Source: Phycisphaerales bacterium (GTDB lineage: Bacteria; Planctomycetota; Phycisphaerae; Phycisphaerales; UBA1924). From it: a stretch of DNA of 64,000 nt. The stretch is taken from NCBI GenBank assembly GCA_029213305.1, contig JARGPA010000001.1, forward strand, positions 1-64,000, given 5' to 3'. Positions 12,144 to 21,137 of this stretch are shown one piece after another. How positions within the stretch are numbered: position 1 is the stretch's first letter; every line of letters starts with the position of its first letter. The notes under the pieces are model-generated. The model had not been told where the DNA came from and did not search any database. It saw only the letters and a program-made list of their open reading frames with translations. A program made the position numbers and the translations under genes.

Positions 12144-14192
12144 ATGTTAAAATCCATTCTGTTATTTTTAGAATCCGTCCATAGTTTTACTCTTTGCATG
12201 ATTTTGGGCGCAGTGTTGATTGCGCCGGATGGGTTGGCTGATGGATGGCTATGCCAAGGGCGAGATTATCTTGCCCTGATCAATACTCCTGGGCACGCTC
12301 AACATGTGGAGATTGTTGGATCAACCGCGTTTGTTGCTGATGGATCCTCAGGTTGGTTGGTTATTGATATCAGTGATCCAACAAATATGAATTTGATAGG
12401 ATCGTTCAACACTACTGGAAGTGTTCAATATTTAACGGTTGTCGACAATATTTTATATTTAGCAGCTTCTGAAGAAGGCTTGAAAATGTTTGATATTCAA
12501 GACATTTCGGCACCTCAACTCTTGGGCTCATATTCTGTAGATGGAGCAGTCTGTAAAGAACTGGAAGTCGTTGAGAGCATTGTTTACTTGATAGGTGATG
12601 GAATGGGTCTTCAGATAGTTGATGCAAGCGACCCAGAATCTCCGGTTTTGCTTGGTTCCCACATCACGCTTGGAAAAGCAGTTAGTTTGTCAATAGTGGG
12701 AAACACAGCGTATGTGACAGATTTTTTTAATGGTCTGCAGATTATCGACATCAGTAATCCAGCAGAAACGATGCTGTTGGGCTCGATCGAAACTCAAGCA
12801 AGAGCACAAGGGGTAGAAGTTAAAGGGTCAGTAGCGTATGTTGCAGGTCATCATGCGGGATTAGAAATATTTGATGTGAGTGATTCCGAATTTCCTGAGT
12901 TGATGAGTGTTTATGATACTCCAGGGGTTGCAATTCAAGTCACAGTTGTTAATAGCACTGCGTTTGTTGCAGATGGTAGTGGCGGACTCCAAATTTTAAA
13001 TGTTGAAGAGCCCTCAAACCCTATTTTAATTGGATCATACAGAACACCCGAAGACTCGGTTGGGATCACTATAGATGGGGACATCGCTTATCTTACTGAT
13101 GGTGGTGGGGTGCATCTGATCGATATTAATGATCCTAAGATTTCGCAGGAAATTAATTTGACATCCACTCGAGCGCGTGCGGAGGCTATGACAATCGTTG
13201 GTGATATGGCATATATCACTGATCATTTCAAAGGTTTGCGTATTTACGATGTGAGTAATCGTGCTGAACCCATCTGGGTCAGCACTTACGATACTCCTTA
13301 TTGGGCTTTCGGAGTGACAGTGGTTGATTCAATTGCCTATGTTGCGGATTATGGATCCGGGATCCAGATCATCGATGTAAGTGATGGTAGTGCTCCTATG
13401 TTCCTTGGGGCATACGACACACCTGGGGGAGCGATTGATGTTGTTGTGGTTGACTCGATTGCGTATGTAGCAGATGAGTTTAGTGGTTTACAAATCATCG
13501 ATATCAGTGACCCCGTTTTTCCAGTTTTACTCGGATCGTACGATACGGCTGGGTCAGCTGATGCAGTTGAAGTCATAGAATCTATAGCTTTTGTTGCAGA
13601 CGGGTCAGAAGGTATACTACTGATCGATGTGAAGAATCCGACGAACCCTCAACTGATGGGTTCCTATAATACTCCTTATTGGGCAGGCGGTGTGGTAGTA
13701 GTTGGGCCCATTGCTTATATTGCAGATCATAATTCGGGCATCCAGATAGTCGATATAAGTGATCCGTTTTCGCCTGAGTTTCTAGGGTCCTATGACACCC
13801 CTGGCACGGCGACAGCGATATCTGTTATTGATTCCATTGCATATGTTGCAGATTTAGATTACGGGATTCAATGTATTGATGTGAGTGATCCAACCAATCC
13901 CACTTTGGTCGGACCGATTTTTACGGATGGATGGTCTCGTAATTTGTTTGTAGACGGTCCCATAGCATATTCTGTGAATGGACTAGCAGGAGTTCAATAC
14001 ATTGACTTGGGTGATTGTCCGCCATGTATTGCGGATCTCAATGAGGATGGCACAATCAACTTCTTCGATGTCTCAGCATTCTTGAATGCGTTCGCTAAAG
14101 AAGACCCGCTCGCAGATTTGACTGGGAACGGCACATTTAACTTTTTCGATGTCAGCGAGTTTCTCGCCGCATTCTCGAATGGGTGTCCGTGA
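12144..14192 (+). CDS. secreted LVIVD-repeat beta-propeller protein with dockerin-like tail
   Basis: This 682-residue protein has a hydrophobic N-terminus (about residues 10-32) that resembles a signal peptide. Then come about 14 repeats of roughly 42 residues, each of the form IAYVADxxxGLQIIDISDPxxP followed by LLGSYDTP. These are LVIVD repeats, expected to fold as propeller blades, so 14 would suit two seven-bladed propellers. The tail holds two Ca-loop units, DLNEDGTINFFDVSAFLNAF and DLTGNGTFNFFDVSEFLAAF, ending GCP, as in the dockerin-like anchors common in Phycisphaerae. TATAAT boxes lie at 12100-12105 and 12127-12132. The function is unknown; surface location is inferred. Confidence 0.85.
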   Translation: MLKSILLFLESVHSFTLCMILGAVLIAPDGLADGWLCQGRDYLALINTPGHAQHVEIVGSTAFVADGSSGWLVIDISDPTNMNLIGSFNTTGSVQYLTVVDNILYLAASEEGLKMFDIQDISAPQLLGSYSVDGAVCKELEVVESIVYLIGDGMGLQIVDASDPESPVLLGSHITLGKAVSLSIVGNTAYVTDFFNGLQIIDISNPAETMLLGSIETQARAQGVEVKGSVAYVAGHHAGLEIFDVSDSEFPELMSVYDTPGVAIQVTVVNSTAFVADGSGGLQILNVEEPSNPILIGSYRTPEDSVGITIDGDIAYLTDGGGVHLIDINDPKISQEINLTSTRARAEAMTIVGDMAYITDHFKGLRIYDVSNRAEPIWVSTYDTPYWAFGVTVVDSIAYVADYGSGIQIIDVSDGSAPMFLGAYDTPGGAIDVVVVDSIAYVADEFSGLQIIDISDPVFPVLLGSYDTAGSADAVEVIESIAFVADGSEGILLIDVKNPTNPQLMGSYNTPYWAGGVVVVGPIAYIADHNSGIQIVDISDPFSPEFLGSYDTPGTATAISVIDSIAYVADLDYGIQCIDVSDPTNPTLVGPIFTDGWSRNLFVDGPIAYSVNGLAGVQYIDLGDCPPCIADLNEDGTINFFDVSAFLNAFAKEDPLADLTGNGTFNFFDVSEFLAAFSNGCP

Positions 14193-16433: not shown

Positions 16434-17327
16434 TCAAGGGCAACCGCCTGAATAGATGCTCAAGAACGTACTGATGTCAAAAAAGTTCAATGCGCCATCG
16501 TTGTTGAGATCTGCGCTTGAGTCCATAGCGCTAAATCGGGACAAGAATAAACTCACATCAAAGAAGTTGAGAGCGCCACAAGGTGCTGCAATGTCTACTG
16601 GACATGAGTTGTCTTCGACGGACCTTGTTACCCATGTGACGAGATTTCCGATGAGAATCCTGAAGTTTGGATCATTGATCTGATCGACTCCAACTGTGGT
16701 TGATAGGTTCACAACTCGGCCGCCGCAAATATCCCATCCGACGACAGCGCCTGAGGTTTCTCCACCCAGTGAAAAATCGGAATCAAAGAATACCGTTGCG
16801 TTTTCCCTAGGAGCAAGGAATGTTTCTGTGCCGCTGAAGCTTGTTACTGGCATTGTGAAGTTCGCAGGTAACCCCGCAGAGACGATTGGGTCTGAAGTAT
16901 TGAGTGTCATCGAAATTGTTGGGGAAGTTCGGAAACTTGCAGAGGGTTCAATGGGCATACTCGCAGCGAGAACTTGCAACACTCCTCGTGCTTGGACCAT
17001 CCAAACAACCCACTCGGAGAAGATAATCCCTCCCCCTGCTTGAGCGAAGTCGAGGAGTTCAGATTGTGCGTCAATTGGGATATCGCTCTGTGTCCAGTTC
17101 CCGTTACCTTGGATATAGACGACATCGAAAGTGCTGAGATCAAATGCGGCGTCGAATTCCCAATAGTTAGGACCGATTTCTGCAGTGTGTCCCTGACTAA
17201 TTAGAGCATCAACCATTGCTGAATCTGTTGTAGTAGATCCCGCGGACACAATCAGTACATGATCTGCTTGTGCGTGTGTTGAGGCCGCGATGAGTGTTGC
17301 TAGTGCAGCTGGTTTGATAAGATTCAT
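16434..17327 (-). CDS. secreted protein with dockerin-like C-terminal tail
   Basis: This 297-residue protein begins with a signal peptide (cleavage likely after THAQA). The body resembles a class-I-amidotransferase-like/ThuA-like fold, with VVYIQGNGNWTQSDI and GGGIIFSEWVVW; that assignment is tentative. The tail has two units, CGALNFFDVSLFLSRF and DLNNDGALNFFDISTFLSIY, ending GGCP, and matches the tail of the LVIVD protein at 12.1-14.2 kb. The first unit lacks the normal Ca-binding loop. It sits convergently with the TPR gene, 19 bp apart. Confidence 0.8.
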   Translation of the reverse strand: MNLIKPAALATLIAASTHAQADHVLIVSAGSTTTDSAMVDALISQGHTAEIGPNYWEFDAAFDLSTFDVVYIQGNGNWTQSDIPIDAQSELLDFAQAGGGIIFSEWVVWMVQARGVLQVLAASMPIEPSASFRTSPTISMTLNTSDPIVSAGLPANFTMPVTSFSGTETFLAPRENATVFFDSDFSLGGETSGAVVGWDICGGRVVNLSTTVGVDQINDPNFRILIGNLVTWVTRSVEDNSCPVDIAAPCGALNFFDVSLFLSRFSAMDSSADLNNDGALNFFDISTFLSIYSGGCP

Positions 17328-17460: not shown

Positions 17461-18783
17461 TTACGGGAAGATGCCGCGAACACGGTAGACATCACCGATA
17501 TGGTCAAGTGCTGAAGCGAAAGCAGCTTCGCGGAGTGAACACTTGAGTTGGTTACGGCGCTCCATCGTGCGTTGAGCAGCAACAACCATATGACGATTGA
17601 GCTCGCGGTCAACCTGCTCTGCGGACCAGGTTACTGCATTCTTGTTCTGTACCCATTCGAAGTAGGAAACGGTTACACCACCTGCGTTCGCGAGGATCGC
17701 AGGGATGACTTCGATTCCCTTTTCGTCGAGCTTGCGTTCGCCTGATGGATCACAAGGAGCGTTTGCTGCTTCGGCCATCACCTTACAGTCGAGCCATGCC
17801 GCTTGTTTCTCTTGGATCATTTGCTCAAGAGCACCTGGGATAAAGACATCAACTGGAGTACGGTAGAATGTTTCTTCATCAACAACATCAACGCCTTCGA
17901 ATCCTGCGATTCCACCGGTCTTCATGTTGTGCTCGTAGAGCGCTTTACAATCGATCCCGTTGTCATTGCGGATCGCGCCTGTGTGATCCATTACTGCAAC
18001 GATCGTTGCGCCCATGTCCTGGAGGATCTGGCCGCCCCAGCCGTTTACATTACCGAACCCGAGGAGCGATACCTTCATGCCTTTGATATCGATACCGACA
18101 CCTGGGAGCATTTCTGCGAGTGTGTCTGCAACACCCTGACCAGTTGCTTTGAGGCGGCCGGCGGATCCGCCGTACTCAACTGGTTTACCAGTAACTACAC
18201 GGAGTGCGTCGTGATGTTGATGTGATGAAGACATCATGTATGTGTCTGCGAACCATGCCATGATTTCTGCGGTTGTTCCAACATCAGGTGCGGGGATATC
18301 AACATCTGGACCGATCTGATCCATGATTGCGCTGCAGTAGCGTCGAGTAACTCTTTGGAGTTCACCGTGTGAGATATCTCTTGGGTTAACTTTTACGCCG
18401 CCTTTGCCGCCGCCGAATGGGATTCGGACAACAGCACACTTCATCGTCATGAGGAACGCGAGTGACTTGACATCATCTAGATGTACATCATCGTGGAAAC
18501 GGAAGCCGCCCTTGTATGGACCACATGCGTTGTTGTGTTGGATTCGGTAACCCTTGAAGAGTTTGTGATGTCCATCATCCATCTTTACAGGGAAGTGGAC
18601 CATGATCTCGTTCTTTGGTTGAGCGAGAATAATTCGAGTCCGGTGCTTGAGGTTGATGAGTTCCGCTGCGTCAAGCATTGTGTTGACGGTTTGGAGATAA
18701 AGATTGTTTGGATCGTTTGGGAATCCGAGTTCTTCAGTTACTGATCCTCTTGGTAGTTCAGTAGCGGTTGCAGCTGGAGTCAT
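17461..18783 (-). CDS. gdhA: Glu/Leu/Phe/Val-type dehydrogenase (glutamate dehydrogenase)
   Basis: About 440 residues, typical of hexameric glutamate dehydrogenases that interconvert glutamate and 2-oxoglutarate plus ammonia. Substrate-site motifs are KGYRIQHNNACGPYKGGFRF and GGGKGGVKVNP; PAPDVGTTAEIMAW follows. The Rossmann motif reads GFGNVNGWGG, with Asn where a small residue is usual. A GTG at 18792 would add three residues; neither start has a clear Shine-Dalgarno. A folded leader RNA precedes the gene and a strong terminator follows. Cofactor preference cannot be decided; Asp in VMDHTG is only suggestive. Confidence 0.92.
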   Translation of the reverse strand: MTPAATATELPRGSVTEELGFPNDPNNLYLQTVNTMLDAAELINLKHRTRIILAQPKNEIMVHFPVKMDDGHHKLFKGYRIQHNNACGPYKGGFRFHDDVHLDDVKSLAFLMTMKCAVVRIPFGGGKGGVKVNPRDISHGELQRVTRRYCSAIMDQIGPDVDIPAPDVGTTAEIMAWFADTYMMSSSHQHHDALRVVTGKPVEYGGSAGRLKATGQGVADTLAEMLPGVGIDIKGMKVSLLGFGNVNGWGGQILQDMGATIVAVMDHTGAIRNDNGIDCKALYEHNMKTGGIAGFEGVDVVDEETFYRTPVDVFIPGALEQMIQEKQAAWLDCKVMAEAANAPCDPSGERKLDEKGIEVIPAILANAGGVTVSYFEWVQNKNAVTWSAEQVDRELNRHMVVAAQRTMERRNQLKCSLREAAFASALDHIGDVYRVRGIFP

Positions 18784-18807
18784 GCTTGGCACCCATTCTC
18801 ATTTCGT

Positions 18808-18907
18808 GCGGGAGAATCCCGCTCGACACCTGCAGCATGTTCCCTCGTAATCGTCGAGGTCGCTCCTCCTGCTGCATCGGTGGAGCGTACGGCTTTCCAA
18901 TAAAGCC
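18808..18907 (-). ncRNA. candidate structured 5' leader RNA of gdhA (four hairpins and a pseudoknot)
   Basis: Read 5' to 3' on the minus strand, the helices are these. P1 is GGCTTT/AAAGCC (18907-18902 with 18896-18891). P2 is CGCTCC/GGAGCG (18887-18882 with 18866-18861, 15-nt loop). P3 is CCTCG/CGAGG (18859-18855 with 18847-18843). P4 is GCGGGA/TCCCGC (18822-18817 with 18813-18808). The P2 loop contains TGCAGCA (18876-18870), exactly complementary to TGCTGCA (18837-18831) beyond P3, giving a 7-bp pseudoknot. P4 ends about 25 nt before the gdhA start. No known riboswitch class was recognised. A role in gdhA control is inferred from position. Confidence 0.6.
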
Positions 18908-18919
18908 GACTCAGTGTGA

Positions 18920-18949
18920 ATGGTATCCGATATGGCTCTTGAATCCCAA
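18920..18949 (-). promoter_or_regulatory. possible gdhA promoter
   Basis: On the minus strand, TTGGGA (18949-18944) and TACCAT (18925-18920) are 18 bp apart. Transcription would begin about 18913, just before hairpin P1 of the leader RNA. The match to consensus is moderate. Confidence 0.4.
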
Positions 18950-19066
18950 TTCGGACATAATTGGAAAGTATTTTCGGCGGATAATTTATGACGAATTATG
19001 CGCCTCGGGTTGAGAAGAATGCAGAATCTGATTTTCGAGAGAAATGATGTGCTCAATTCACTTCAA

Positions 19067-19094
19067 TTGAGGGTAAATCTTTGTGCAATATACT
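19067..19094 (+). promoter_or_regulatory. probable rpsA promoter
   Basis: TTGAGG (19067-19072), 16-bp spacer, TATACT (19089-19094). The start point would be near 19101, giving a leader of about 250 nt before rpsA. Confidence 0.6.
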
Positions 19095-19100
19095 GTTCTC

Positions 19101-19352
19101 GCGTCCAGATATGATCTATCCTTCTCTTCCCGGCAATCAGGACTTTGATGTCCGTCGGGTAGGCCGATCTTGCACCCGGATGGTCCGGAGCTGCAAGTCC
19201 GTTTGACTCTTTAGCCGCACTGGTAACAGTGCAATCTGATCGAGTACAGTTCTGTGCTCATTTCAGATGCAGAGACACACGAAGTTGTTTGGCCTGACAA
19301 CTTCGGGAGCGTCACTGCGATACTCGAAAGAGTATGGAAGGATAACACTATT
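19101..19352 (+). ncRNA. candidate structured rpsA leader
   Basis: Several perfect stems are visible: GGAC/GTCC (19140-19143 with 19150-19153); CTTGCA/TGCAAG (19169-19174 with 19192-19197) enclosing CCGG/CCGG (19176-19179 with 19185-19188); GCACTG/CAGTGC closed by a GTAA tetraloop (19217-19232); and ATACTC/GAGTAT closed by GAAA (19320-19335), immediately before GGAAGG. GGACTT (19140-19145) can also pair with AAGTCC (19195-19200), which competes with the first and second stems. S1 autoregulation is known in E. coli; whether this leader does the same is inference. Confidence 0.5.
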
Positions 19353-21137
19353 ATGATCGACGAGAATCTGATCGCGTCACTGGGTATCGCTGACGACGAA
19401 GCGATGGCACTCCTGGGAGAAGCATTCGGTGAAAGTGCTGATTCCGATCTTCGGATGGACACGATCCTGTCTGATCAATCAACTGATCTTCAACCAGGTA
19501 AGCTCATCAAGGGCACCGTCATCGGGTTCGCCGGCGACGATGTTGTTGTTGAAGTAGGCCTTAAGAGTGAAGGTCTCATCCCTCGCGAAGAGTTCTCAGG
19601 GATGACAGAACTCAAGATCGGCGATGAAGTTGATGTATTGCTCGAATCGCTCGAAGGCGACGACGGACTCATCGAACTCTCCAAGCGCAAAGCAGATCGT
19701 CAGATTGCTTGGCAGCGCATCGTTGACACCACAAAAGAAGAAGATGTGGTCGAAGGTACAGTCATGCGGAAAATCAAGGGCGGCTTGCTCGTTGATATCG
19801 GCGTCCCTGTCTTCCTTCCTGCGTCACAGGTTGACATCCGTCGCCCACATAATCTCGATGAGTTCATCGGCCGCAAGGTTCGTGCTGAAATCCTCAAGAT
19901 CGATACCGAACGCCGTAACATCGTGATTTCCCGTCGTAAGCTTGTCGAGCACGAGCGTTCCGCTGCGAAGCAGAACCTCATGTCCAACATCAACGAAGGA
20001 CAGGTCATCACTGGTACTGTCAAGAACATCGCCGATTTCGGTGCATTCGTTGATCTCGGTGGAATCGATGGTCTCTTGCATATCACTGATATGTCTTGGG
20101 GACGCATTAATCACCCATCAGAACTTCTCAAGATCGACGATAAGGTCGAGGTTAAAGTCCTCAACATTGATCGTGATAAAGAGAAGATTGCTCTTGGTCT
20201 CAAGCAGACCGAGTCGTCACCTTGGGAAGAAATCGAAGCGAAGTACCCAGTCGGGTCACGCATCAAGGGCGAAGTCGTCAACATCATGTCCTACGGTGCG
20301 TTCATCCGCCTCGAAGACGGCATTGAAGGTTTGGTCCACATCTCAGAAATGTCATGGACTCGTCGCGTCAATCACCCATCGGAAATCGTCAACCCAGGCG
20401 AAGAAATCGATGTGGTTGTTCTCGAAATCGACAAGAACAAGCAAGAGATCTCTCTTGGTATGAAGCAAACCGAGGTCAACCCTTGGGAACTCGTTTCCGA
20501 GAAGTACCCAAATGGAACCATCGTAACTGGTACTATCCGCAACCTCGCGAACTACGGCGCGTTTGTTGAGATCGAACCAGGAATCGACGGCCTATTGCAT
20601 ATCTCCGATATGTCATGGACTAAGAAGGTTACTCATCCAAACGAGCTCTACAAGAAGGGCGACGAAGTTCAGTGTGTTGTGCTTGATGTCGATCGTGACA
20701 AGCAGCGCATCTCACTTGGTATCAAGCAGCTTTCCGAGGATCCATGGGTCGAAGCGATCCCTGGCGCATACCAACCAGGTATGGTTGTCCGAGGCAAAGT
20801 CACCAAGATCACCAACTTCGGTGTGTTTGTTGAACTCGAAGAGGAACTCGAAGGCCTATTGCATATCTCTGAACTCGCAGATCACAAAGTTGAGAATCCG
20901 CAAGATGTCGTTACTGTTGATGAAGAGGTCGATGTTAAGATCCTCCGAGTCGATATCGATGATCGCAAGATCGGACTCTCACTCAAGCGTGCTCAATGGG
21001 GCGATGCAACCGGTGGCGAAGGTGGAGCACCTGAAGGTGGCGCATCAACCGGTGGCGGCGCTGGCGGCATGAACATCCCAACCCGCGGTGGTATGGATGA
21101 TCATGGTGCGATGGGTACTGACAAGATCGAACTCTAA
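19353..21137 (+). CDS. rpsA: 30S ribosomal protein S1
   Basis: Predicted 594 residues with six S1 RNA-binding domains, starting at about KGTVIGFAGDDVVVEVGLKS and ending with VRGKVTKITNFGVFVELEEE. Domains three to five are the most alike (GLLHISDMSW, HP). The C-terminus is a Gly-rich tail (GGEGGAPEGGASTGGGAGG). The ATG at 19353 is preferred: GGAAGG (19336-19341) is 11 nt upstream. An in-frame GTG at 19254 would add 33 residues unlike S1. S1 helps mRNAs bind the 30S subunit, which matters in a genome where several genes lack Shine-Dalgarno sites. Confidence 0.95.
   Translation: MIDENLIASLGIADDEAMALLGEAFGESADSDLRMDTILSDQSTDLQPGKLIKGTVIGFAGDDVVVEVGLKSEGLIPREEFSGMTELKIGDEVDVLLESLEGDDGLIELSKRKADRQIAWQRIVDTTKEEDVVEGTVMRKIKGGLLVDIGVPVFLPASQVDIRRPHNLDEFIGRKVRAEILKIDTERRNIVISRRKLVEHERSAAKQNLMSNINEGQVITGTVKNIADFGAFVDLGGIDGLLHITDMSWGRINHPSELLKIDDKVEVKVLNIDRDKEKIALGLKQTESSPWEEIEAKYPVGSRIKGEVVNIMSYGAFIRLEDGIEGLVHISEMSWTRRVNHPSEIVNPGEEIDVVVLEIDKNKQEISLGMKQTEVNPWELVSEKYPNGTIVTGTIRNLANYGAFVEIEPGIDGLLHISDMSWTKKVTHPNELYKKGDEVQCVVLDVDRDKQRISLGIKQLSEDPWVEAIPGAYQPGMVVRGKVTKITNFGVFVELEEELEGLLHISELADHKVENPQDVVTVDEEVDVKILRVDIDDRKIGLSLKRAQWGDATGGEGGAPEGGASTGGGAGGMNIPTRGGMDDHGAMGTDKIEL

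Follow-up and report, generated by a model that had tools for sequence, protein, structure and literature searches.

The window analysed here, a stretch of 64,000 nucleotides from a Phycisphaerales bacterium, carries on its minus strand a gene for glutamate dehydrogenase, gdhA (17461..18783), whose product matches NCBIfam GdhA_Arch with an E-value of 4.8e-118, under that model's equivalog cut-off. Its ATG start codon (18783-18781) is kept in relatives and is preceded, at a distance of 6 nt, by a GGGTG resembling a ribosome-binding site (RBS; 18790..18794, minus strand), and the motif GG[AG]TG recurs 6-9 nt before the ATG in 14 of 15 same-genus leaders. A GTG at 18792 was considered as the gdhA start and is unlikely, as it falls within the conserved RBS and the relatives support the ATG. 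Further upstream, a -35-like TTGGGA (18944..18949, minus strand; TTGGGC in most close relatives) and a -10-like TACCAT (18920..18925, minus strand) are separated by 18 nt and together form a putative sigma70-like promoter (18949-18920), recognised from its sequence and absent from the list of a consensus promoter scanner. TTGGG stands about 18 nt ahead of the -10 in most relatives of clade A, one of two subclades, and the -10 itself reads TAYVAT (AATCAT once) in all 17 aligned leaders; transcription is expected to start about 7 nt downstream of it. The divergent neighbor of gdhA is rpsA, with 18784-19354 of the window lying between the two genes; this arrangement (also L098-L177) was found in 18 of 18 checked loci of the leader-bearing genera and also in many members of the Phycisphaerales family that have no leader. 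GAAAATACTTTCC (18963-18975, minus strand), which precedes the -35 by about 13 nt, is kept in several clade A relatives and is possibly an operator or UP-like element of gdhA.

Between this promoter and the gdhA ATG (18949-18784), the minus strand holds four perfect hairpins: P1 (18908-18890; CGGCTTT-ATTGG-AAAGCCG, 7 bp), P2 (18887-18861; CGCTCC...GGAGCG, 6 bp, with CC/GG pairs continuing beyond an A.A mismatch), P3 (18859-18843; CCTCG-ACGATTA-CGAGG, 5 bp) and P4 (18822-18808; GCGGGA-TTC-TCCCGC, 6 bp), the last ending about 13 nt ahead of the RBS. The P2 loop contains TGCAGCA (18876-18870), which can form seven perfect pairs with TGCTGCA (18837-18831), so that P2 would be stem 1 of a pseudoknot. 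The original prediction had described these hairpins and the exact complement of the P2 loop with every letter correct, and had misjudged a single spacing, since the 3' strand of the knot begins 5 nt past P3 rather than seven. Its view that such a fold was unlikely by chance also holds. The fold of the window's leader beats 200 of 200 dinucleotide shuffles (z -2.9), and in a search blind to sequence, which asked for 6-7 bp of stem and a loop able to form a pseudoknot of 5-7 bp, its score was matched in 2 of 1000 dinucleotide shuffles, so that the window's leader taken alone is already improbable as an accident. The minimum free energy (MFE) fold, being nested, favors the long-range TGCAGCA/TGCTGCA helix over P2; such a fold is unable to draw both together, a shortcoming of the program that does not count against P2.

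Relatives were reached through GdhA, i.e., 16 genomes of the same genus, including the window's own, in which the upstream region was available, and three of a second genus. The whole order of promoter, P1, P2, P3, pseudoknot, P4, RBS and gdhA was found in 14 of the 15 other same-genus genomes (15 of 16 with the window) and in two of the three second-genus genomes, and the placement between a plausible promoter and the gdhA start, claimed at the outset from the window, is the same in the relatives. In every leader P1 starts 5-12 nt past the -10, so that it would be the first element of the expected transcript. In clade A the end of P4 closely precedes the RBS, and in clade B and L073 an extra hairpin lies between the two. 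P3 differs in sequence and length among relatives, most of which allow some local hairpin to be drawn at that position. There is one copy of the leader per genome, and it lies upstream of gdhA only. Two loci, L074 (genome G144, same genus) and L035 (genome G081, second genus), have an intact gdhA and no recognisable CAGC/GCTG knot, from which it follows that the knot is dispensable; in L035, a tight tetraloop hairpin occupies the place of P2.

Within the knot, the 5' strand contains CAG in all 17 leaders, as GCAGC in 14 of the 15 of the same genus (GCAGT in one) and as TCAGC in the second genus, and GCTG of the 3' strand is likewise present in 17 of 17. The 5-bp core can pair in each of them, and in the second genus (L036, L096) it has become TCAGC/GCTGA, within CTCAGC/GCTGAG in L096, a compensatory change of both sides from G-C to U-A. 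In the main genus, an L1 of 3-5 nt crosses a stem 2 of 5-7 bp with 0-2 nt between the stems, lengths that fit the coaxial stacking classical for H-type knots, with P3 inside the last loop; in the second genus L1 is 1 nt. Outside the knot core almost no unpaired base is kept between the subclades, with differences in L1, L2a and L2b as well as in the joining segments. A DNA similarity search with the leader across the family brought up the leader of one relative clearly above chance, and it was because of this high divergence that homologues had to be found through gdhA. The two subclades are too divergent for MAFFT to register, yet they retain the helices.

Since MAFFT had mis-registered clade B against clade A, the 17 leaders were aligned by hand in segments around the helices, and covariation was judged against a null in which the changes of each column were re-placed on the GdhA protein tree in 2000 rounds. 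P2 was paired in 95% of cells (52% in the null), P4 in 87% (53%) and P1 in 86% (73%), and in none of the three was the covariation score reached by any of the 2000 nulls; single positions of P2 show as many as four types of pair. These helices thus covary beyond phylogeny. The pseudoknot was paired in 87% of cells against 82% in the null and its covariation was weak, being reached by 74 of 2000, because its GCAGC/GCTGC core hardly varies. The covariation among Phycisphaerae that the original prediction had proposed as its check is therefore strong for P1, P2 and P4 and weak for the knot. As the helices had been placed by eye, P2 alone was rerun with free placement on shuffled flanks; the real leaders showed 6.65 of 7 pairs, whereas none of 1000 rounds gave a mean above 5.76. 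With 29 G-U pairs to 13 A-C mismatches, the balance favors the gdhA-sense strand as the one that folds; P4 alone has the opposite trend, chiefly at the first position of that helix, which is usually unpaired.

The leader was also confirmed by independent searches. A descriptor with no sequence preference returned the CAGC/GCTG knot as its top choice in 12 loci of the same genus and in both of the second genus; in more distant members of the family it never did so. Two covariance models were built, R1 from N-padded clade A sequences (with row L033 carrying a shortened P4 loop) and R2 from clade B sequences only. R2 detected L110 (26.4 bits) and L108 (22.0 bits), both leaders of clade A, precisely at their place before gdhA, with E-values that are rough owing to a short calibration, and L195, the leader of L073, was matched by both models. 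Cross-detection between the two was partial, both missed the second-genus leaders, and R1 run across the family gave matches at chance level outside the genus. No match at the gathering score was found in the window among the 4227 families of Rfam 15, and none at E<=2 in eight relatives, in keeping with the initial remark that no known class was recognised. By context the nearest are the glnA (glutamine-I) and Downstream-peptide RNAs, likewise structured leaders of nitrogen-metabolism genes, i.e., those for glutamine synthetase, PII, glutamate synthase and ammonium transporters (PMC2864571). In contrast to these, the leader described here is known solely upstream of gdhA in Phycisphaerales, and in the window at 18700-19400 their Rfam models found nothing at a threshold as lax as E<=10. 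No gdhA leader RNA was found in the literature searched.

With helices and knot kept while their letters changed, this leader of uncultured Phycisphaerales is very probably a real, uncatalogued control element. As to what it does, on balance we lean towards a gdhA-specific, lineage-restricted, cis-acting pseudoknot leader of about 130 nt that probably acts on translation initiation. Transcription would proceed from the upstream promoter, P1 would form a cap at the 5' end of the RNA, P2 would coexist with the TGCAGCA/TGCTGCA helix in an H-type pseudoknot carrying P3 in its last loop, and P4 would stand directly ahead of the RBS. The most likely action is that the ease with which the knot opens sets translation initiation, through access of the ribosome or S1 and together with mRNA stability, and a bound protein or the state of growth would probably modulate this opening, rather than a metabolite held in a classical deep-pocket aptamer. 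The scarcity of conserved unpaired bases is more in line with a leader that is structural or bound by protein than with a classical metabolite aptamer, and a protein or the ribosome is accordingly the likelier reader. E. coli S1 has been reported to unfold structured leaders at initiation (PMC3858243); a link of S1 to this leader, suggested by rpsA being the divergent neighbor, is only a guess. No direct translational switch can be made out, as no RBS-sequestering (anti-SD) helix is conserved among the leaders compared, and a scan for terminator-like sites found no intrinsic terminator in the leader. Sequestration of the RBS by the 5' strand of P2 was considered and rejected, its duplex energies being like those of shuffles and other lineages being devoid of the complementarity; only in four species, L067, L068, L070 and L071, can that strand pair with the CGGGTGC of the RBS region, over 7 bp if G-U is allowed. 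An upstream ORF from the ATG in the window's P2 loop was also rejected, the ATG being missing in most relatives.

Some of the same evidence could be read otherwise, as a constitutive 5' stabiliser of the mRNA and enhancer of translation that senses nothing. The position of P1, where the transcript is expected to begin, conservation of structure rather than of unpaired bases and the failure to find a switch partner all suit that reading, but a knot core that is nearly invariant across divergent lineages exceeds the needs of a 5' hairpin, and we regard it as unlikely. A new class of metabolite-binding riboswitch, sensing glutamate, glutamine, 2-oxoglutarate or ammonium and gating gdhA translation through the H-type pseudoknot, also appears improbable. 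It draws on that near-invariant core, on a compact architecture like that of small translational riboswitches, on the position of the leader solely upstream of a nitrogen-assimilation gene, and on the lack of a convincing glutamate synthase (PF01645) in the window's own genome (G000), where the only match is weak and partial, at 26 bits over profile positions 195-305; this genome, 92% complete, may thus lack glutamate synthase (GOGAT) and have GDH as its main route to glutamate. Against it, unpaired positions outside the core are not kept between the subclades, no conserved alternative fold sequesters the RBS, and the element serves one gene in two genera only, in contrast to most metabolite riboswitches. 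A feature of the DNA or of the opposite strand, e.g., an operator or a leader of rpsA, could appeal to the recurrent divergent arrangement with that gene but is most improbable, given that every relative has P1 right after the gdhA -10 and the end of the structure beside the gdhA RBS, that the rpsA start is about 450 nt off with a promoter-like site of its own near 19067, and that the G-U bias favors the gdhA strand. The original prediction, of a leader that works as a riboswitch or binds a protein and so controls glutamate metabolism, stands as far as a cis-acting structured gdhA leader is concerned, on the strength of conservation, covariation, position and single occurrence; in invoking a ligand or protein and control of glutamate metabolism it reached beyond the data, and the scarcity of conserved unpaired bases speaks somewhat against a classical metabolite aptamer.

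The leader, with its putative H-type pseudoknot, has counterparts among known RNAs. preQ1-I and SAM-II are small translational riboswitches of the H-type, in which the loop of a stem-loop pairs with a downstream strand near the start codon. The gdhA leader pairs its loop downstream in the same manner, but some 50 nt separate its knot from the start codon, P3 sits in the last loop, the RBS lies outside the knot, and conserved unpaired pocket bases are lacking. Among ribosomal-protein leaders, that of the S4 alpha operon is a pseudoknot that acts on translation. The same is described for the rpsO/S15 leader (PMC8470358). Both resemble the gdhA leader in having a pseudoknot conserved in structure, and differ in that a protein ligand is known for them alone and that the gene downstream of the gdhA leader encodes a metabolic enzyme.

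An uncatalogued, covariation-backed RNA element here precedes the central enzyme of ammonium and glutamate metabolism in bacteria that have been little studied. Should it bind a nitrogen metabolite, it would found a new riboswitch class, and should it bind a protein, it would tie glutamate dehydrogenase to translation or nitrogen status. The leaders of the relatives supply ready-made compensatory variants. Elsewhere in the window, the proteins encoded at 16437-17327 and 12144-14192 share similar dockerin-like ends (LNFFDIS...), which NCBIfam dockerin_GC confirms for that of 16437-17327.
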